A stretch of DNA of 64,000 nt from Candidatus Melainabacteria bacterium. GTDB lineage: Bacteria > Cyanobacteriota > Vampirovibrionia > 2-02-FULL-35-15. The stretch is taken from assembly GCA_016193285.1 (NCBI GenBank), contig JACPSL010000012.1, forward strand, positions 1-64,000, written 5' to 3'. Below the pieces are notes generated by a model. The model saw nothing but the letters and a program-made list of their open reading frames with translations. It searched no databases and was not told the DNA's origin. How positions within the stretch are numbered: position 1 is the stretch's first letter; each line of letters starts with the position of its first letter. The translations under genes were made by a program, and so were the position numbers. Positions 1,351 to 62,739 of the stretch are shown here, in pieces.

Positions 1351-3206
1351 GCTATATGCTCCGCTTGCGTTCTAGTTTTAGTTATTTCTTTTTCAATTAT
1401 ATTTTTCAGATTTATTTGACCTAGGTATTTTGTAAGTAACAATAAAAAGACTATTAATGCTCCAAAGCTAATGTACAAAGAGATTTTACGAATTGGTGTA
1501 TTTTCAAAGCGTACTGTTATCTCATGTTTCCCGCCAGGAGCTTCAAAAACCATAGCACCGCTTTTAGGATCAATATTAATAATTGTGTTTTTCCCATCAA
1601 TGTAAACATTCCATCCAGGGAAAAAGAAGGTTCTCAATCTAACTTGATGTGGTGTAGGAGAAAAAATCTCAAACATTCTCTCATGTGACAACCATTTTTT
1701 TATTGTTATATCTATGTAGGGGTTAGTAGATTGTATAGCAGGTGAAAAATCATGTCTTAGATCTGTTTGCCTCCAATCCGGATCCCCTGTGATATTTGGC
1801 CTATATTCATCACTTGCCCAACTAATGCTAATTGCAGATTTAAGAAGATTTTCTTCTGGTACCCATCCCCAATGATACATGTTTATAAAATCAACATATA
1901 AAAGCAAACAAAAAGTAAATCCAGTAGCATAAATTATAATTTTGTAACCATAAATGTCAAATTTTTCTTTTAAGATTTTTCCAATTAAATCAAAAGCATA
2001 CACTAAAATAACCACACCAAATGTAAGGACAAATGTAGTAAACCTCCAAGGGAATTGAATTGTTTGAAGCGGCTTAATCATAAGCCATACATACAAAGAA
2101 ACAGGAGTCATCATTAAAAAAGAAATTACGAACATCAGTGAAGCCATTTTTATTCTAAGTGGTTCTATAAAATAAAGTTTTACTTTCCCCCAGTTTAAGA
2201 GCAAAGTTACAAGGCAGGTAAGAACAACTAGAGAAAATAGTGCATTGCTTACTTCATAATATCTATGATCAAAAATTGCCCATGCATATCCATCATCTCT
2301 GTGCCTGTCTAAGTATGTGTACAGGAAATTTTTAGAAAAATCCCAAAGAGGACCCTGTGTAAGGATTTCATCTGTGTGGACAAATCTTTTTTCAAGGCAT
2401 GCAGGGAGCAAATAAAAACTACTAAGTGCAACCCCAAATCCATAACTTAAAAAAAACCACTTAACAAACTTTTTTGTTCTGTATAGTAGCAAGCTAAGAA
2501 AAAAGTATGGAACACTTAAAAGTACAAGAACGAAAGCTGTTGCTAAGTGAGATAAAGCAAGACAAGCAAAACCTGTTGATGTAATTAAAAATGATTTTAA
2601 ATCAAACTCTTTATTCTTATCAAAACTATCAATGCCATATAAGGTAAGAAATAAAAATGGTATGGCAATGGTACTATTTGGCCAGTTCGTGTTATAGATA
2701 TAAATATGAATTGCAGGAGAAAAAATTACAAAGGCACAAGCAAGAATACTAGCAACAGGTGAGCCATGTCTTCTTAGATATAAGTAACCAAAAACAGTGG
2801 ATAAGAGCATTGGTGTTATATATATCCATTTGATTGAAAGTAAGGGATTTCTAAAAATTAAATCTATTAAAACAAAAAAATAATAAACTAGTGGTGCGTA
2901 GTAGTTAAAAATAGGTAAACCATATCCACTTGTATGAGCATCAATCCATCTTGGTAGCCATTGTCCCTGCCAAAAACATCTCTTAAAGTTATAAACATGT
3001 TCCATGTGAATATGCCAGTCAGCATGGCTTGGAATACTTTTACCAAAAATCATTGGGCCACAAGAAATGAGAGTTAGCAAGACAAGAAAAACAATTCTTT
3101 CCATTCTATTTCCAAGGAAGTGATATCCTTTTACTTCGTGTTGTATAGGTGATTCAGCGGTTGGTTCAGTTTGGCTTATAGTTTGATTTTCTGTGCTTTC
3201 AATCAT
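1347..3206 (-). CDS. polytopic membrane protein, PTPS-related/GT-C-like glycosyltransferase
   Basis: 619 residues with a cytoplasmic N-terminus, about a dozen membrane segments from residue 35 onward, a periplasmic C-terminal domain (about 470-585) and a final membrane helix. The first loop reads SHADWHIHMEHVYNFK, then YGLPIFNYYAPLVYYF, typical of the '6-pyruvoyl-tetrahydropterin synthase-related' membrane family (YfhO/GT-C type), which is thought to move sugars from lipid carriers. The acidic/histidine loop (ADWHIH) is a likely active-site region. It is followed by the coupled FG-GAP gene at 373-1350. The donor and acceptor are not deducible. A related protein lies at 15747-17432. Confidence 0.8.
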   Translation of the reverse strand: MIESTENQTISQTEPTAESPIQHEVKGYHFLGNRMERIVFLVLLTLISCGPMIFGKSIPSHADWHIHMEHVYNFKRCFWQGQWLPRWIDAHTSGYGLPIFNYYAPLVYYFFVLIDLIFRNPLLSIKWIYITPMLLSTVFGYLYLRRHGSPVASILACAFVIFSPAIHIYIYNTNWPNSTIAIPFLFLTLYGIDSFDKNKEFDLKSFLITSTGFACLALSHLATAFVLVLLSVPYFFLSLLLYRTKKFVKWFFLSYGFGVALSSFYLLPACLEKRFVHTDEILTQGPLWDFSKNFLYTYLDRHRDDGYAWAIFDHRYYEVSNALFSLVVLTCLVTLLLNWGKVKLYFIEPLRIKMASLMFVISFLMMTPVSLYVWLMIKPLQTIQFPWRFTTFVLTFGVVILVYAFDLIGKILKEKFDIYGYKIIIYATGFTFCLLLYVDFINMYHWGWVPEENLLKSAISISWASDEYRPNITGDPDWRQTDLRHDFSPAIQSTNPYIDITIKKWLSHERMFEIFSPTPHQVRLRTFFFPGWNVYIDGKNTIINIDPKSGAMVFEAPGGKHEITVRFENTPIRKISLYISFGALIVFLLLLTKYLGQINLKNIIEKEITKTRTQAEHIA

Positions 3207-3209
3207 AAT

Positions 3210-3244
3210 TTAGACCATAGACTATAGACCATAGACCATAGACC
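3210..3244. repeat. five-unit heptamer cassette (ATAGACC family)
   Basis: Five consecutive 7-nt units (one TTAGACC, one ATAGACT, three ATAGACC) make 35 nt in the gap between the membrane protein gene and the GT2 gene. The same unit type, also five units long, occurs inside alaS and the UbiD-like gene. A shorter pair of TTTCTCA-type heptamers lies just after it (about 3266-3282). Confidence 0.85.
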
Positions 3245-31373: not shown

Positions 31374-32954
31374 CTATTCAATTTGTTTAGCACCAAGTAA
31401 GTCTTTTATGCTTCTTGATAACTCATCATCATTGGAGGTTTCAAGGTTTCGAGGTTTCAAGGTTTCGAGATTTTGAAGTTTCGAGGTTTCTGAAATCTGA
31501 GCATGTGGTTCAACTTTAAATCTAATTACTTTTGGTTCTATATTAGTTGAGAGTTTAATAGCTCTAATTATCATTTCTTTCTTTTTTGTATCTTGTTCTA
31601 ATCTTGGCAGAAACATATCTCTAGATAAACCAATCTCAGCAAGTTCACTAGATAAACTAATTAGATAACTTTCAGATTGATTAAGTAAAGTTTTTGTTGG
31701 GTTACTGTCTATTAGACTGATGGCTTGTTTCCATGAGGTTTCAAGGTTTTGAGGTTTTGAGGTTTCAAGGTTTTGAGGTTTTGAGGTTTCAAGGTTTTGA
31801 GGTTTCAAGGTTTCAAGGTTTTCAAGCTTTTCAATTCTTTCTTTTAACTCTGTCATAGAAACTAAAAAATCTTCATCAAGCATACTCATAATCTCTACCA
31901 TAAACTGTAACTCTTGACTTAGTGCAAATCGGAGCTTTGTCAATGCATCCTGTAGTTTGTCAATAATTTTTAGTAAATGCCCTTGTTTAACTTTTTCTAA
32001 GACATTTAAATCGTTTGATAATTCCTTACTTAATTCATTTCTACATTCAGGGTCAATTTTTGCTTTTGCTAGATCAATAATTAACTCTAGTAAATCTTTA
32101 AATATTTCACTTATATCTTTTCCAGTTTTAATTAACTCTTCAGCAAGATCTATAACTCTTTTTTTATTAAAAGTTAATATTGCTTCCATTAATGTAAACA
32201 AAGCACTTCTTTCAACTGTTCCCAGAAGTTTAAATACTTCCTTTGAATCTATTGGTCTATCATCATCTTGTAGAACACTTATTTGATCTAAAAGTGATAT
32301 TGCATCTCTCAAACAGCCAAGGGACTTCTTTGAAATAAAATTAATAATATTTTGATCAATGTTTATTTTTTCTTCTTTTGTAATTGCTTTAATCTTGCTC
32401 TCAGTTTCAATTATTGATGCAGGCTTAAAATCAAACTTTTGACATCTGCTAATAATTGTTGGAATCACTTTGTATTCTTCTGTTGTAGCTAAAATAAAAA
32501 TTACATTTTTTGGCGGTTCTTCAATTGTTTTTAAGAGTGCATTAAAAGCATGATCAGTAAGCATATGCACTTCATCAATAATATAAATTTTAAACCTGGA
32601 TCCATATGTAACTAGTCCTACTCTGTTTATTAAATCTTCAGCGTCTTCTACCTTTCTATGGCTTGCAGCATCAATTTCTATTACATCAAGCGAGTTACCT
32701 TGAATGATTGATTTGCAGCTTAGACATTTATCACAAGGTTCTAACGTAATCCCAGACATACAATTTAGTGACTTAGCAAGTATTCTTGCTGTAGAGGTCT
32801 TTCCTGTACCACGTGGCCCGCAAAAAAGATAAGCATGAACAATTTTATTGTATAAAATTGCATTAGAAAGAGTTTTTCTAACAAACTCCTGTCCAATTAT
32901 TTCAAACAATTTTTGTGGGCGATATTTTAAATATAAAGGTTGATATTGTTTCAT
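31374..32954 (-). CDS. dnaX: DNA polymerase III gamma/tau subunit
   Basis: 526 residues. N-terminal YLKYRPQKLFEIIGQEFVRK, Walker A FCGPRGTGKTSTARIL, the zinc module CDKCLSCKSI, Walker B IYIIDEVHMLTDHAFNALLK and the SRC motif (TIISRCQKFDF). This is the clamp-loader ATPase. The tau-like C-terminus is built partly from octamer repeats: residues about 376-407 read NLETSKPQ-type units, and another array covers about 489-507. ATGA overlap with pth (32951-32954). No slippery A-run for frameshifting was noticed. Confidence 0.94.
   Translation of the reverse strand: MKQYQPLYLKYRPQKLFEIIGQEFVRKTLSNAILYNKIVHAYLFCGPRGTGKTSTARILAKSLNCMSGITLEPCDKCLSCKSIIQGNSLDVIEIDAASHRKVEDAEDLINRVGLVTYGSRFKIYIIDEVHMLTDHAFNALLKTIEEPPKNVIFILATTEEYKVIPTIISRCQKFDFKPASIIETESKIKAITKEEKINIDQNIINFISKKSLGCLRDAISLLDQISVLQDDDRPIDSKEVFKLLGTVERSALFTLMEAILTFNKKRVIDLAEELIKTGKDISEIFKDLLELIIDLAKAKIDPECRNELSKELSNDLNVLEKVKQGHLLKIIDKLQDALTKLRFALSQELQFMVEIMSMLDEDFLVSMTELKERIEKLENLETLKPQNLETSKPQNLETSKPQNLETSWKQAISLIDSNPTKTLLNQSESYLISLSSELAEIGLSRDMFLPRLEQDTKKKEMIIRAIKLSTNIEPKVIRFKVEPHAQISETSKLQNLETLKPRNLETSNDDELSRSIKDLLGAKQIE
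31433..31488. repeat. octamer array in the 3' part of dnaX
   Basis: Seven 8-nt units such as TCAAGGTT, TCGAGGTT and TTGAAGTT. On the minus strand these are AACCTTGA/AACCTCGA, the same family as before purD and in yidD. They translate to NLETLKPRNLETS-type sequence. Confidence 0.85.
31733..31828. repeat. twelve-unit octamer array within dnaX
   Basis: Twelve consecutive 8-nt units (ATGAGGTT, then TCAAGGTT/TTGAGGTT, ending TTCAAGCT), 96 nt in total. Three units equal 24 nt, giving an 8-residue protein repeat (NLETSKPQ) that stays in frame. Confidence 0.9.
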
Positions 32955-45218: not shown

Positions 45219-47819
45219 ATGGGACCAGCAACCTCAAAAGAAATTCGTGAGTCTTGGATTAGTTTTTTTTCTAAAGAGCATGGTCACACATATGTCAAGA
45301 GCAGCTCTTTAATACCAGACAATCCAACACTTTTATTAACAGGAGCTGGCATGGTTCAGTTTGTACCATATTTTTTAGATTTAAAAGAACCTGAATTTAA
45401 ACGTGCAGCAACTATTCAAAAATGTACACGTGTTGGAGGAAAAGATTCTGATCTTGAAAATATTGGGAGAACAACAAGACATCACTCGTTTTTTGAAATG
45501 CTTGGAAATTTTAGTTTTGGAGATTATTTTAAATCTGAAGCAATTTCTTGGGCATGGGATTATGTAACAAAGATTTTAAGCTTGCCAAAGGAAAAGTTGA
45601 TTGTCTCTGTTTTTAAGGGAGATAAAATAACACCTTTTGATAGTGAAGCTTATGATTTATGGAAAAAACTTGGTTTAGATGAAAGTAAAATTAAAAAACT
45701 AGGTAGGAAAGATGTGTTTTGGGGTCCTCCAGGGCCAACAGGTCCTTGTGGACCATGTTCTGAGATTTATTTTGACAGAGGGCCTGATTTTAAAGATCCA
45801 GATGAGAGATATTTAGAGATCTGGAATCTTGTTTTTATGGAATTTGAAAAAGATGAAGAAGGGAAGATTAAATTACTTGCGAAAAAAAATATAGACACAG
45901 GAGCTGGACTAGAAAGAATTGCTCTTATTTTACAGAGTAAACCAAGTACATTTGAAACAGATCTTTTAAAACCGATTCTAGACACAGTTTGTGAAATAAC
46001 GAAGGGTAAATCTGATTTAAAAACAAGAATCATTACCGATCACATTCGTTGTATTTGTTTTTTAATTGCAGATGGAATAAGACCTAGCAATTTAGGACGT
46101 GGTTATGTACTCCGCATGCTAATTAGAAGAGCAGCAAGATTTGGTTACTTGCTTGGTATGAGAGAGCCATTTTTATATAAATTACCAGGAGTAGTGACAG
46201 AAAATTATTCAGTGGTTTACACTGAGCTGTTAAACATAAATTTAACTATTGAGGTAGTTAAACGAGAAGAAGAAAAGTTCTTAGAAACAATTGAACGAGG
46301 ACTTGTTTATTTGGATAATTTATTTTTAAAACCAGGGAAAATAATTTCAGGAGAAGATGCTTTTAATTTATATTCTACCTATGGTTTTCCAGTTGAATTA
46401 ACTATTGATATTGCAAAAGAAAAGGATAAAGAAGTTAATCTTGTAAGTTTTGAAACTGCAAAAGAAAAGCATTCAGAAGTTTCAAACAAAGATGTTTTTG
46501 CAGTTAAGTTAACAGATAAAAAAAATTATGGAGATCTTTTAAAAGAACTTGGAACTACACAATTTTTAGGATATGAAGTAGAAAGATGTGATGCAAAAGT
46601 TCTTGCAATTTTAAACTCAAGTGGAGAAAGAGTAGAAAAAATAAAAGAAGGAGAAAGTGGTGAAATTATTTTAGACAAGACTGTTTTTTATGCTGAATCT
46701 GGAGGACAAGTAGGTGATATTGGAATTATTAGAGACCAAAGACTAGAGACTATAGACCAGAGACCTAAGGTTATAGTTACTGATACACAAAAATTTGAAG
46801 GACTCTTTATGCATCATGTACAGGTAAAATCTGGAGAAATAAAAATTGGAGATAATGTTTCATGTGAAATTGACTTAGAAAGACGAACTCGCACAAAACA
46901 TCACCATAGTGCTACACATCTTATGCACTCAGCACTTAGAAAGATCTTTGGAGAAACCCTTCAGCAAGCAGGTTCAGAGGTAAATTATGAAAGAACAAGA
47001 TTTGATTTTACGCTTGATCGAGGAGCAAAACCAGAAGAAATTAAAATGATTGAAGACATGGTAAATAACTGGATTCAAAAAAAACTACCAGTAGAAATAA
47101 AAGAAATGTCATTTGATGATGCAATAAAAACAGGTGCTCTGGCATTTTTTGGGGATAAGTATGGTGATTTTGTAAGAGTCATAAAAATGGGGGATGAAAA
47201 AGAACTTGCAAGTGTTGAGTTTTGTGGTGGAACGCATGTAAAAAACACTAGTGAAATAGGTGAATTTAAAATAATTAAAGAAAGCTCAATTAGTGCTGGT
47301 ACAAGAAGAATAGAAGCAGTTAGTGGAGAGGCACTAAGAGAGTACATGGTTAAGCAAGAAAAAGAAAGAGAATTAAAATCACAGAAAGAAAAGGAGCTAG
47401 AAGTAAAAAAGATACAAGAAGAAAAAAAAACTGCTCTTAGTTTGGAAAAATTAAAGATGCAAGAAGACAAAATACAAAAATTACCAAATGATGTTTTACT
47501 TTTTATTCCCAAGTCAGATGATTATGGATCAAATGCAATTAAAATCTATATTGAAAATAAAATTAAATCAGAGACAAAACTAGTTGCTGTAATTGTAAAT
47601 GTAGAGACGTTGCTCGCAACGTCTCTAACATTTTATGTAGGCATCACAAAAGACCTTATCCAGAAAGGCTTAAAAGCCAAAGAACTTGTAAACAAAATTG
47701 CAGAGGTAACTGGTGGTCGTGGTGGCGGTCGCGATGATTTTGCACAAGCTGGTGGGAAAGATATTTCAAGAATTGAAGAAGCTTTAAAAGCTGGTCAGAA
47801 ATTTATTCTACTTTTTTAA
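45219..47819 (+). CDS. alaS: alanyl-tRNA synthetase
   Basis: 866 residues. Catalytic core ESWISFFSKEHGHTYVKSSS, RHHSFFEMLGNFSFGDYF, WGPPGPTGPCGPCSEIYFDR; editing domain FYAESGGQVGD and HHHSATHLMHSALRK, with VEFCGGTH supplying the zinc ligand; coiled coil near 705-755 and C-terminal GGRGGGRDDFAQAGG. Two repeat-derived pieces are read in frame: residues about 505-516 (RDQRLETIDQRP, heptamer cassette) in the editing domain, and about 795-803 (VETLLATSL, palindrome) in the C-terminal domain. Essential for charging tRNA-Ala, so both insertions must be tolerated. Confidence 0.96.
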   Translation: MGPATSKEIRESWISFFSKEHGHTYVKSSSLIPDNPTLLLTGAGMVQFVPYFLDLKEPEFKRAATIQKCTRVGGKDSDLENIGRTTRHHSFFEMLGNFSFGDYFKSEAISWAWDYVTKILSLPKEKLIVSVFKGDKITPFDSEAYDLWKKLGLDESKIKKLGRKDVFWGPPGPTGPCGPCSEIYFDRGPDFKDPDERYLEIWNLVFMEFEKDEEGKIKLLAKKNIDTGAGLERIALILQSKPSTFETDLLKPILDTVCEITKGKSDLKTRIITDHIRCICFLIADGIRPSNLGRGYVLRMLIRRAARFGYLLGMREPFLYKLPGVVTENYSVVYTELLNINLTIEVVKREEEKFLETIERGLVYLDNLFLKPGKIISGEDAFNLYSTYGFPVELTIDIAKEKDKEVNLVSFETAKEKHSEVSNKDVFAVKLTDKKNYGDLLKELGTTQFLGYEVERCDAKVLAILNSSGERVEKIKEGESGEIILDKTVFYAESGGQVGDIGIIRDQRLETIDQRPKVIVTDTQKFEGLFMHHVQVKSGEIKIGDNVSCEIDLERRTRTKHHHSATHLMHSALRKIFGETLQQAGSEVNYERTRFDFTLDRGAKPEEIKMIEDMVNNWIQKKLPVEIKEMSFDDAIKTGALAFFGDKYGDFVRVIKMGDEKELASVEFCGGTHVKNTSEIGEFKIIKESSISAGTRRIEAVSGEALREYMVKQEKERELKSQKEKELEVKKIQEEKKTALSLEKLKMQEDKIQKLPNDVLLFIPKSDDYGSNAIKIYIENKIKSETKLVAVIVNVETLLATSLTFYVGITKDLIQKGLKAKELVNKIAEVTGGRGGGRDDFAQAGGKDISRIEEALKAGQKFILLF
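46731..46765. repeat. five-unit heptamer cassette inside alaS
   Basis: Units AGAGACC, AAAGACT, AGAGACT, ATAGACC and AGAGACC, 35 nt in all. Located where other AlaRS proteins have a short turn after FYAESGGQVGD.GII. Confidence 0.9.
47602..47627. repeat. TAGAGACGTTGC palindrome inside alaS
   Basis: Perfect 12-bp arms TAGAGACGTTGC/GCAACGTCTCTA with a TC loop. The sequence is of the type abundant in cyanobacterial genomes as a small dispersed repeat. Confidence 0.88.
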
Positions 47820-48597: not shown

Positions 48598-49560
48598 CTA
48601 ATATTTCTTTAATTTAATAAGCCCTTCTCTGTCCTTTGCTTCTCCTTGTGTTAAAGACCAAGCCCTGGAGCTATTTTTACTTTTATTCCTAAGTTCTTCA
48701 CCATTTACTTCATGCCACTTGAAATCAAATAAAATATGTTTAGGATCATCATTGTAGATAGTAATTTCTCTAAATGCATTTGGGTATTGAACAACAGCAG
48801 GACAGCTGTTGTGAATTATATTTTTAATTTTGGATAATTTTGCAGCATGATAATGACCACTAAATACTGCAAGAACATTTTTATATTCTTTAATTAAATT
48901 TAAAAGCTTAGTTCTGTCTGGTTCAACAATAAAATGATCCTTACTTTTATATGGTTCAACTATTGGGAAATGAATAGCAATGATTACAAACCTATCCTTA
49001 CTATTTTCTAACTCATCATGTAACCATTTAAGTTGCTTGTCATCAATTTGCCCAAGTGCTGTAACAATTTTATCTGTGGTGCCATCAAGACAAATAAATT
49101 TAAACTTTTCATTAGGCAAAAAAGAATAATAAGTAGAGACGGGGTTAACCCCGTCTCTACTAAATTTTTTAATAAATCCTTTTTTACCAAGTCCACCACC
49201 TATACTTACATCATGATTGCCAAGTAAAACATACAATGGATATTTTAATGACATAGTAATATTAATAAACTTATCTACTAAGTCTTCTTCTGGTGTGTCT
49301 ACAAGATCTCCTGTAGCTAAAACAAGATCCAGATCTTTTATATTATTTATTTGTTCAACAGCACTAGTTAAAAGTTTTTCAGAGCTTCCAAGTAGTCTCT
49401 CTGCATCTTTTGCATATGAATGTTGAAGATGAATGTCAGAGATCTGGACAAAATGTAAAAGTGGTTTTAATTCCTTAGAACTTGTAAAAGAAGTAGAGAA
49501 GCAAAGAAGTAAGGAAGTAAAGAAACATGAAAATAAAAAATATTTTCTTTTTTTAGTCAT
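48598..49560 (-). CDS. secreted calcineurin-like metallophosphoesterase
   Basis: 320 residues. Signal peptide (FLFSCFFTSLLLCFSTSFTS) then the metal-site series VQISDIHLQHSY, LVLATGDLVD, YVLLGNHDVS, VIIAIHFPI and FSGHYHAAKL, i.e. all five metallophosphoesterase motifs. Probably periplasmic; the substrate is unknown. Residues about 134-143 (RDGVNPVST) are encoded by a perfect 28-bp palindrome, placed between GNHD and the next strand, away from the metal ligands. Confidence 0.86.
   Translation of the reverse strand: MTKKRKYFLFSCFFTSLLLCFSTSFTSSKELKPLLHFVQISDIHLQHSYAKDAERLLGSSEKLLTSAVEQINNIKDLDLVLATGDLVDTPEEDLVDKFINITMSLKYPLYVLLGNHDVSIGGGLGKKGFIKKFSRDGVNPVSTYYSFLPNEKFKFICLDGTTDKIVTALGQIDDKQLKWLHDELENSKDRFVIIAIHFPIVEPYKSKDHFIVEPDRTKLLNLIKEYKNVLAVFSGHYHAAKLSKIKNIIHNSCPAVVQYPNAFREITIYNDDPKHILFDFKWHEVNGEELRNKSKNSSRAWSLTQGEAKDREGLIKLKKY
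49133..49160. repeat. perfect 28-bp palindrome inside the metallophosphoesterase gene
   Basis: GTAGAGACGGGGTT followed directly by its complement AACCCCGTCTCTAC, flanked on both sides by TAA-containing sequence that could be a short target duplication. Same GTAGAGAC end as the element in alaS. Confidence 0.92.
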
Positions 49561-49594: not shown

Positions 49595-49662
49595 AAGTTA
49601 CGAAGTTATGAACCTTGTAACCTCGTAACCTTGTAACCTCGTAACCTTGTAACTTCGTAACT
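49595..49662. repeat. octamer array before purD with an inverted piece
   Basis: Six AACCTTGT/AACCTCGT/AACTTCGT units (49611-49658) preceded by two inverted units (GAAGTTAC, GAAGTTAT). The inverted part can pair with the last units. The array abuts the purD TATAAT. Confidence 0.88.
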
Positions 49663-54036: not shown

Positions 54037-54346
54037 GAATTAACCTCGCAACCTCATAACCTTGTAACCTCGAAACCTTGTAACCTCGAAACCTCGGTAC
54101 TTCGTCTATCCCTCCTTCACATAATGGATGACATCTTAAAATCCTTTTAACTGAGAGAGCAAGGCCAATAAACAGGCCATGTTTTTGAATTGATTCTAAA
54201 AAATAATCAGAACAACTTGGATAAAAACGACATTCAAAAAAGCCAAATAAAGATCTTAAAAATCTTGTCTTTTGCCATAAGTTGGTTGAAAAAGGAAGGG
54301 CCATATAAAGGAATGTGTGTATTGTAGAAAAAACTTTTGTAAACAT
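54026..54346 (-). CDS. yidD: membrane protein insertion efficiency factor YidD
   Basis: 106 residues. FYPSCSDYFLESIQKHGLFI and RILRCHPLCEGGIDEVP are the YidD hallmarks, with conserved cysteines. The last 21 residues (from about residue 81, FRGYKVSRLQGYEVARL) are read from an octamer array, so the natural end has been extended. Follows rnpA and overlaps yidC. Confidence 0.92.
   Translation of the reverse strand: MFTKVFSTIHTFLYMALPFSTNLWQKTRFLRSLFGFFECRFYPSCSDYFLESIQKHGLFIGLALSVKRILRCHPLCEGGIDEVPRFRGYKVSRLQGYEVARLIHGF
54042..54105. repeat. eight-unit octamer array in the 3' end of yidD
   Basis: Units AACCTCGC, AACCTCAT, AACCTTGT, AACCTCGA, AACCTTGT, AACCTCGA, AACCTCGG and TACTTCGT, 64 nt, ending 5 nt upstream of the yidC ATG. 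Confidence 0.9.
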
Positions 54347-61069: not shown

Positions 61070-61161
61070 TTTCCCTTAAAATAAAACACAAAGAGGCATT
61101 GTACCATTTATTCCGTTATTCTTTATACCCTCATTTTATAATAGTTTGGTAAAGGTTTTTG

Positions 61162-62739
61162 ATGTACAAAGATCTAAGAACATTTATAAGAAAACTTGAA
61201 GAATGTAGTGAACTTATAAGAGTAACTGCACCAGTAAATCCCTATCTTGAGATTTCTGAAATAACTAACAGAGTTTCAAAAGCAAACCAGGACAAAAATA
61301 AAGCCTTACTATTTGAAAATGTTTTAGGGTGTCAGATTCCAGTTCTTATTAATGCCTTAGGTTCTTATAAAAGAATGTACTTAGCATTAGGTGTTAATTC
61401 ATTTAAAGAGATTGCAGAGAGGATTGAAAAGTTCCTAGATAAAAAGATCCCTGATAGCTTTTTAGGTAAGTTAGGGATGCTACCAAAACTTGTTGAGATA
61501 GCTTCTTTCCCTCCACGTATTGTAAGTAATGGCCCTTGCCAAGAGATAGTGATAACTTCTCCAAAAGAACCCATGCTAGATAAGTTACCCATCATTACTG
61601 CATGGCCTCAGGACGTGGCTCCTTTTATTACTATGACAGTTGTTGTAACAAAAGATCCTATAACAGGTATACGTAATGCAGGAATGTATCGCCTGCAAAA
61701 ATTGGACAATTGTACTACTTGTATGCATTGGCATAAGCATCATGATGGAGGTCAGAACTATATTGAGACTATAGACTATAGACCAGAGACCAAAGACCTT
61801 GCTTCTGTTTTGGAATTGAGAGCAAGGATGACAGATAGATTAGGACAAGAAGTAGAACGAGACGGCGAGACAGCTATAAAGCTTCAAGAAAAAACCTTGA
61901 AACCTCGCAAGATGGAAGTTGCTGTTGCAATTGGCTGTGATCCAGCTATTATGTATGCAGCAAGTGCTCCACTTCCACATGGAGTTGATGAGTTTTTATT
62001 TGCTGGTTTTTTAAGAAGTGCACCAGTTGAGCTTGTTAAATGTAAAACAGTAGATCTTGAAGTACCGGGGGCAAGTGAAATTATACTTGAGGGTTATGTT
62101 GATTTAGATGAGCTTACCGTAGAGGGGCCATTTGGAGATCATACTGGTTTTTATAGCCAGCCAGCTTTATTCCCGAAGTTTCACATTACTGCAATGACTC
62201 ACAGAAAAGATCCAATTTATACTACAACTATTGTTGGCAAGCCACCAATGGAAGATTGTTATATGGGAAAAGCAACTGAACAAATATTTTTGCCGCTCAT
62301 TAAAGTTTTTTTGCCAGAAGTTGTGGATTTAAATTTTCCACTTGAAGGAGTTTTTCATAATTGTGCAATAGTAAGTATAAAGAAAAAATATCCAGCTCAT
62401 GCAAAAAAAGTTATAAATGCAATCTGGGGTTTAGGACAAATGATGTTTACAAAATATGTTATAGTTGTTGATCATGATATAGATGTTCATAATATATCTG
62501 AAGTTGCATTTCATGTTTTTGCAAATACAGATCCAAAACGCGATTCACTTTTTACAGAAGGACCAGCAGACATTTTAGATCATGCACCAAATAAAATTGC
62601 TATGTCTGGTAAGATGGGGCTTGATGCAACAAGGAAATTGGCCTCAGAAGGATATGAAAGACAGTGGCCTTGTGAAATGCTGATGGACAAAGCTACTAAA
62701 GAGTTGGTATCTAGAAGGTGGAAGGAGTATGGGCTATAG
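61162..62739 (+). CDS. UbiD-family (prenylated-FMN) decarboxylase with internal repeat insertion
   Basis: 525 residues from the ATG at 61162; the TTG just before it is in frame. YKDLRTFIRKLEECSELIRV, PRIVSNGPCQEIV, then NAGMYRLQKLDNCTTCMHWH, AIGCDPAIMYAASAPLPHGV, FAGFLR and EGPFGDHTGFYS are the UbiD core, including the E...D/E catalytic region. About 50 residues between HDGGQNY (near 195) and MEVAVAIG (near 251) are extra and carry a heptamer cassette and two octamers. Substrate uncertain (menaquinone/ubiquinone-type or aromatic acid). No ubiX is seen here. Confidence 0.88.
   Translation: MYKDLRTFIRKLEECSELIRVTAPVNPYLEISEITNRVSKANQDKNKALLFENVLGCQIPVLINALGSYKRMYLALGVNSFKEIAERIEKFLDKKIPDSFLGKLGMLPKLVEIASFPPRIVSNGPCQEIVITSPKEPMLDKLPIITAWPQDVAPFITMTVVVTKDPITGIRNAGMYRLQKLDNCTTCMHWHKHHDGGQNYIETIDYRPETKDLASVLELRARMTDRLGQEVERDGETAIKLQEKTLKPRKMEVAVAIGCDPAIMYAASAPLPHGVDEFLFAGFLRSAPVELVKCKTVDLEVPGASEIILEGYVDLDELTVEGPFGDHTGFYSQPALFPKFHITAMTHRKDPIYTTTIVGKPPMEDCYMGKATEQIFLPLIKVFLPEVVDLNFPLEGVFHNCAIVSIKKKYPAHAKKVINAIWGLGQMMFTKYVIVVDHDIDVHNISEVAFHVFANTDPKRDSLFTEGPADILDHAPNKIAMSGKMGLDATRKLASEGYERQWPCEMLMDKATKELVSRRWKEYGL
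61764..61798. repeat. five-unit heptamer cassette inside the UbiD-like gene
   Basis: Units TGAGACT, ATAGACT, ATAGACC, AGAGACC and AAAGACC, 35 nt, encoding TIDYRPETKD-type residues 201-212. Two octamer units (AACCTTGA, AACCTCGC) follow at 61893-61908. Confidence 0.9.

Follow-up and report, generated by a model that had tools for sequence, protein, structure and literature searches.

The window, i.e., the whole 64,000-nt stretch of DNA that was analyzed, lies on contig 12 of a draft genome (1.81 Mb, 39 contigs, 96% complete) of Candidatus Melainabacteria, a relative of cyanobacteria from groundwater. It contains alaS, the gene for alanine--tRNA ligase (AlaRS), which carries a heptamer array and a palindrome, and further repeats of the same families are found elsewhere in the window:

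3211 to 3244, plus strand: heptamer array of the same family as the alaS array, intergenic
45219 to 47819, plus strand: alaS, alanine--tRNA ligase, an intact, open ORF of 866 aa with both repeats in frame
46730 to 46769, plus strand: heptamer array of five AGAGACC-like units, in the editing-region hairpin loop, AlaRS residues about 505-517
47601 to 47629, unstranded: palindrome GTAGAGACGTTGCTCGCAACGTCTCTAAC, in a hairpin turn of the DHHA1 C-terminal domain, net +2 residues
49132 to 49161, unstranded: palindrome AGTAGAGACGGGGTTAACCCCGTCTCTACT, another member of the alaS palindrome family, lying in frame within a metallophosphoesterase gene on the minus strand (48601-49560)
61766 to 61797, plus strand: heptamer array of the same family as the alaS array, in frame in ubiD (61159-62736)

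The original prediction held that alaS stays open despite its two repeats, and this was borne out by the 866-aa product, which is encoded by one copy in the genome and scores 835.6 bits against the curated model TIGR00344 alaS (cut-off, 457). Pfam identified the domains tRNA-synt_2c, tRNA_SAD and DHHA1, and both the curated model and this domain order place the protein among bacterial alanine--tRNA ligases. We aligned AlaRS with its counterparts in ten further genomes belonging to the family of the host and in 19 other members of the class. Alignment with relatives, as the original prediction had proposed, revealed extra residues at both repeat sites, rather than none. At residues about 720-740, the linker helix preceding the C-terminal domain is ~25-45 residues shorter in the host and in its closest relative, G007, than in other family members.

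The proposed mapping onto a structure was carried out on an AlphaFold model of AlaRS, which was built on four sequences and is poor in the catalytic domain, so that the editing and C-terminal domains alone were used. In this model, the heptamer site is placed between strands E502-506 and E517-526, and the palindrome site between strands E788-795 and E803-809; both are predicted to be beta-hairpin turns between adjacent strands. The open frame and these predicted turns agree with the earlier claim that both repeats keep the frame and sit in turns.

At the first site, a heptamer cassette had been expected in the editing domain at residues about 505-516, and it is found there as the array AGAGACC-AAAGACT-AGAGACT-ATAGACC-AGAGACC. 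The pattern AGACNNN, repeated four times, has 10 matches within the window compared with 0.02 expected. The host protein is 5 residues longer here than that of G007 and 7 longer than many others, which amounts to a net gain of +5 to +7 residues over most relatives. Other genomes carry different sequences in the same loop. In G007 it is occupied by a palindrome, GTAGGGGCATGCCATGGCATGCCTAC, of a type dispersed in that genome (33 copies of its pattern), while in G010 it holds an array of a different heptamer, CAATACT, which occurs at one other place in that genome. In L030, which is more distantly related, the loop contains a REP-like insert of 25 residues. The AlaRS heptamer loop is a site of recurrent turnover.

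At the second site, the palindrome has a 28-bp form, GTAGAGACG..CGTCTCTA[A]C, at about 47601-47629, within which TAGAGACGTTGC-TC-GCAACGTCTCTA forms perfect 12-nt arms (47602-47627, residues about 795-803), confirming the 12-bp-arm palindrome originally placed in the C-terminal domain. With up to 3 mismatches allowed, GAGACGTTGCNNGCAACGTCTC occurs once in the window and is absent from shuffled sequences. The host is 2 residues longer at this site than 9 of the 10 family members and most class members, reading IVNVETLLATSLTFYV where G001, for example, reads IIADITSENKLTFFV. The element is longer than nine codons, yet the net change in the protein is only +2 residues; the 28-nt element stands where ~22 nt of the earlier turn sequence are now missing. 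The claim that repeats add amino acids to an essential enzyme therefore holds for the heptamer site, mostly with +5 to +7 residues, and hardly for the palindrome site with its +2.

Both alaS repeats are members of dispersed short repeat families. Palindromes with the same outer arm number 44 genome-wide, while a reversed control pattern gave none. They are 27-29 nt long, carry GTAG/CTAC at both ends in 32 of the 44, and have at most one inner mismatch in all except one (43/44). Palindrome subfamilies in the genomes of the family are GTAGAGACG, GTAGAGGC and GTAGGGGC. That they reflect chance or an assembly artefact is hardly credible: the genome is a draft of 39 contigs and the named relatives are metagenome assemblies, but the 44 copies stand against no control matches, the family recurs in several independent assemblies and the reading frames are open.

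We examined ~355 kb of the genome (window included) around the 44 palindromes and the heptamer arrays, with genes called by a hexamer model. Thirty-eight palindromes lie inside coding ORFs, in frame, and about 6 lie outside genes. Among the genic copies, 22 are read as VET..SL and 16 as RDA..VS; the third frame is empty, since GTAG would supply a stop there. Dozens of housekeeping genes bear palindromes, among them leuS, gltX, trpA, trpC, hemB, pyrD, fmt, cca, queA (two copies), mnmA, mnmE, rluD, rlmD, thiE, thiL, phosphohexomutase, enolase (eno) and ychF, named by us from sequence, with rluD and enolase checked with Pfam. Single genes can hold several palindromes. In the host genome (L097:2369-3400 and L119:2615-3469), queA holds two, and thiL holds one together with a degenerate one.

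The predominance of genic copies raises the possibility that the hairpin is useful in mRNA or as a recognition site for a protein or DNA uptake, its protein turns being incidental. The stability of the alaS hairpin is higher than its composition would give (z -3.0), and the genic share of 38/44 exceeds a simple neutral bound at 91% coding (P 0.007). Against this, the host genes are functionally unrelated, copies outside genes exist, the element has no conserved position within a gene and the net length changes described below would go unexplained, making a useful hairpin a very improbable explanation.

The four-unit heptamer pattern has 63 matches genome-wide compared with 5 for a control pattern. 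About 30 heptamer arrays were found in the fetched DNA, with 15 of the 30 inside genes. The arrays often form face-to-face pairs, as at loci L104, L107, L108, L115 and L122 (near position 3000; for L115, near 8050), with an AGACC-type array followed ~10 nt later by a GGTCT-type array, and such pairs would form long imperfect hairpins. The window also contains further tandem families with 8-nt units (GAGGTTTC, AACCTCGT) at 31435-31490, 31734-31831, 49611-49661 and 54041-54096.

The small length change at the alaS palindrome recurs across the family. For 29 of the genes with palindromes, orthologues were identified in five relatives and fetched from four, using the joined gene segments as the query and realigning every orthologue individually; the relatives belong to other genera, with ~70% protein identity, and no empty sites were seen at the DNA level. 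At the palindromes, 87% of comparisons show a protein length other than that of the relative; for shifted control windows the figure is 17%. Across the 29 genes and four relatives, the net change has a median of +1 residue and a maximum of +8, and none of the 29 sites shows the +9 or +10 residues of a clean insertion. A clean insertion of 28 nt is thereby excluded, which leaves one-step replacement or the trimming of every insertion. At the 11 strict sites, where palindrome-free relatives agree with each other, the net changes are -4, -1, -1, 0, 2, 2, 3, 4, 4, 5 and 8 residues, implying that 4-40 nt of the target are missing. Solved structures of outgroups extend this comparison: RluD aligns without a gap to E. 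coli RluD across the palindrome (net zero), enolase differs by +1 residue and HemB by +8. Based on these alignments, overwriting appears to describe the palindromes better than insertion does. The loops that hold them are indel-prone anyway, which counts against replacement.

Two larger inserts of other kinds were seen in relatives near palindrome sites of the host. At the mnmA site, G001 (L180) has a HISTSAHQ repeat that is 36 residues longer, and near the rlmD site, G007 (L161) has a 29-residue REP-like insert (VIASEAKQS..).

Insertion of the Rickettsia type, in which the whole element adds 9-10 residues and later loop deletions under length selection trim the surplus, gives the same picture as replacement in comparisons between genera. 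Loops tolerate indels, Rickettsia elements are known in-frame insertions (PMC3733652), and hemB and comM, both at +8 residues, come near a full insertion. We nevertheless consider this course unlikely, as no site stands at +9 or +10, RluD has exactly the length of its E. coli counterpart, and elements with intact arms occur at net -4 to +5 residues, where trimming would have had to hit the old sequence only and never the element.

In 15 of 106 comparisons, including some for fmt, cca, trpA and trpC, the relative carries a palindrome of its own where the host has one, compared with 10 of 561 controls (P 3e-7). The occupation of some sites may date back to the common ancestor and would then pull net lengths toward zero. 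Taken further, the sites could have been filled in the ancestor of the family, the copies having since changed or been lost in each lineage, so that relatives would be poor stand-ins for the ancestor. Such old vertical occupancy would account for the shared sites; it leaves unexplained RluD, queG, thiE, rlmD and the second alaS site, where the relatives have no palindrome and are alike in length, as well as the solved outgroups of the same length, and we regard it as improbable.

Copying between arms would fit the inner sequences. The inner arms of same-site palindromes in relatives are mostly different (e.g., fmt and cca), with the arms still matched. Symmetry also extends slightly into the unique flank (1.05 vs 0.38 nt). 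Together with the scarcity of inner mismatches in the host, these matched arms and the flank symmetry suggest arm-to-arm copying, e.g., by template switching. Target duplication was looked for at the palindromes and none was found. Past the first bases of the flanks, complementarity showed no excess in local alignment and a modest excess when anchored at the element; given this weak signal, we make no claim that the element is drawn to hairpins already present.

A possible mobiliser was sought among the transposase genes of the host genome, which has one IS200-type gene and one RAYT-like gene. The latter scores 59 bits, compared with the curated cut-off of 80 for REP-associated transposases, and itself carries the palindrome in frame; the same holds for two RAYT-like genes found in relatives. 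In these three genomes (L141:1836-2420, on contig 18 of the host; L135:1636-2232; L139:2026-2556), the in-frame GTAG palindrome follows the HUH motif, and several other genomes of the family have repeat-like sequence at the same place of the gene. The repeats neighbouring the RAYT-like gene of the host are ATGTAACC palindromes instead of the one it carries, and four RAYT-like genes have this different palindrome type, ATGTAACC..GGTTACAT, nearby. With a score below the cut-off and other palindromes nearby, we rejected RAYT as a proven mobiliser; it is a plausible candidate.

The GTAGAGACG palindrome is shared beyond the class, since other genomes in the phylum have the same 28-mers and arms; the exact 28-mer GTAGAGACGTTGCATGCAACGTCTCTAC is found in the host (L093) and in several of them. 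It is common in several families of probably photosynthetic cyanobacteria, and within the class it was found above background only in the family of the host. GTAG palindromes of cyanobacteria have the same outer arms and length as the host element. The two other phylum genomes sampled, which are probably photosynthetic cyanobacteria, have most of their copies between genes (4 of 22 are genic), whereas those of the host are mostly genic (38 of 44; P 9e-8).

The host element was also compared with known repeat systems, and we found no paper on palindromes in Melainabacteria. In the GTAG-tagged REP superfamily, the GTAG end is unpaired (PMC3733652). The host element shares with GTAG REPs a palindrome of 20-40 bp, many dispersed copies and a terminal GTAG. 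It differs in that GTAG pairs with CTAC instead of standing unpaired at one end, in that REPs are mostly intergenic, and in that a RAYT flanked by the repeat is lacking. Since these defining features are absent, the element was not filed in the superfamily, though it still works like a GTAG REP. Rickettsia palindromic elements (RPEs) insert into genes, lengthening the protein by tens of residues. Such lengthening by a whole element is not seen in the host, where the net change is -4 to +8 residues. RPEs are dispersed, palindromic and in frame in many protein-coding genes, whose proteins presumably work (PMC3733652), and they share in-frame palindromes in ORFs with the host element, a likeness by description. 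Perfect inverted repeats also lie inside functional protein-coding genes of Nematomorpha mitochondria (PMC6649704), and template switching has been proposed to create and maintain hairpins, keeping their arms matched (PMC8794818). Unlike the host palindromes, neither the Nematomorpha palindromes nor the template-switch hairpins are dispersed elements with a shared outer motif. The heptamer arrays resemble the STRR heptamer repeats of heterocystous cyanobacteria, which likewise consist of degenerate 7-nt units in short dispersed tandem arrays (likened by description); in the host, by comparison, about half of the arrays are genic (15/30).

Taking these results together, we consider it probable that the palindrome, a symmetric GTAGAGACG..CGTCTCTAC element, enters genes by replacement, with selection keeping the tolerated frames and turns, and that the heptamers are a parallel system. 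The 27-29 nt of the element would be exchanged for 4-40 nt of the gene, mostly at surface turns, and the resulting difference in length would be divisible by three. Copies would then be retained by selection only in the two TAG-free frames and at folds that tolerate a new turn. In a single-step event, a hairpin of single-stranded DNA could enter the lagging strand by annealing or copying, or template switching could occur between palindromes, and arm-to-arm copying would keep the arms matched while the inner arms change. Heptamer arrays would act as a parallel tandem-repeat system in the same kind of loops. It is possible, and we suggest it only tentatively, that this is a copy-and-replace repeat, whose 28-nt hairpin overwrites a host stretch of similar length in one step with little length change, colonises coding sequence and repeatedly rewrites the same turns.

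Short palindromic repeats are usually seen as intergenic passengers or, in Rickettsia, as protein-lengthening insertions. The palindromes of this host would instead substitute several residues of a protein turn at once, in essential enzymes too, and a single genome thereby provides ~40 natural experiments on the acceptance of foreign peptide segments by conserved folds. As related genera have different palindromes at these turns, the mode of spread, whether template switching, hairpin annealing or insertion with later trimming, is directly testable.
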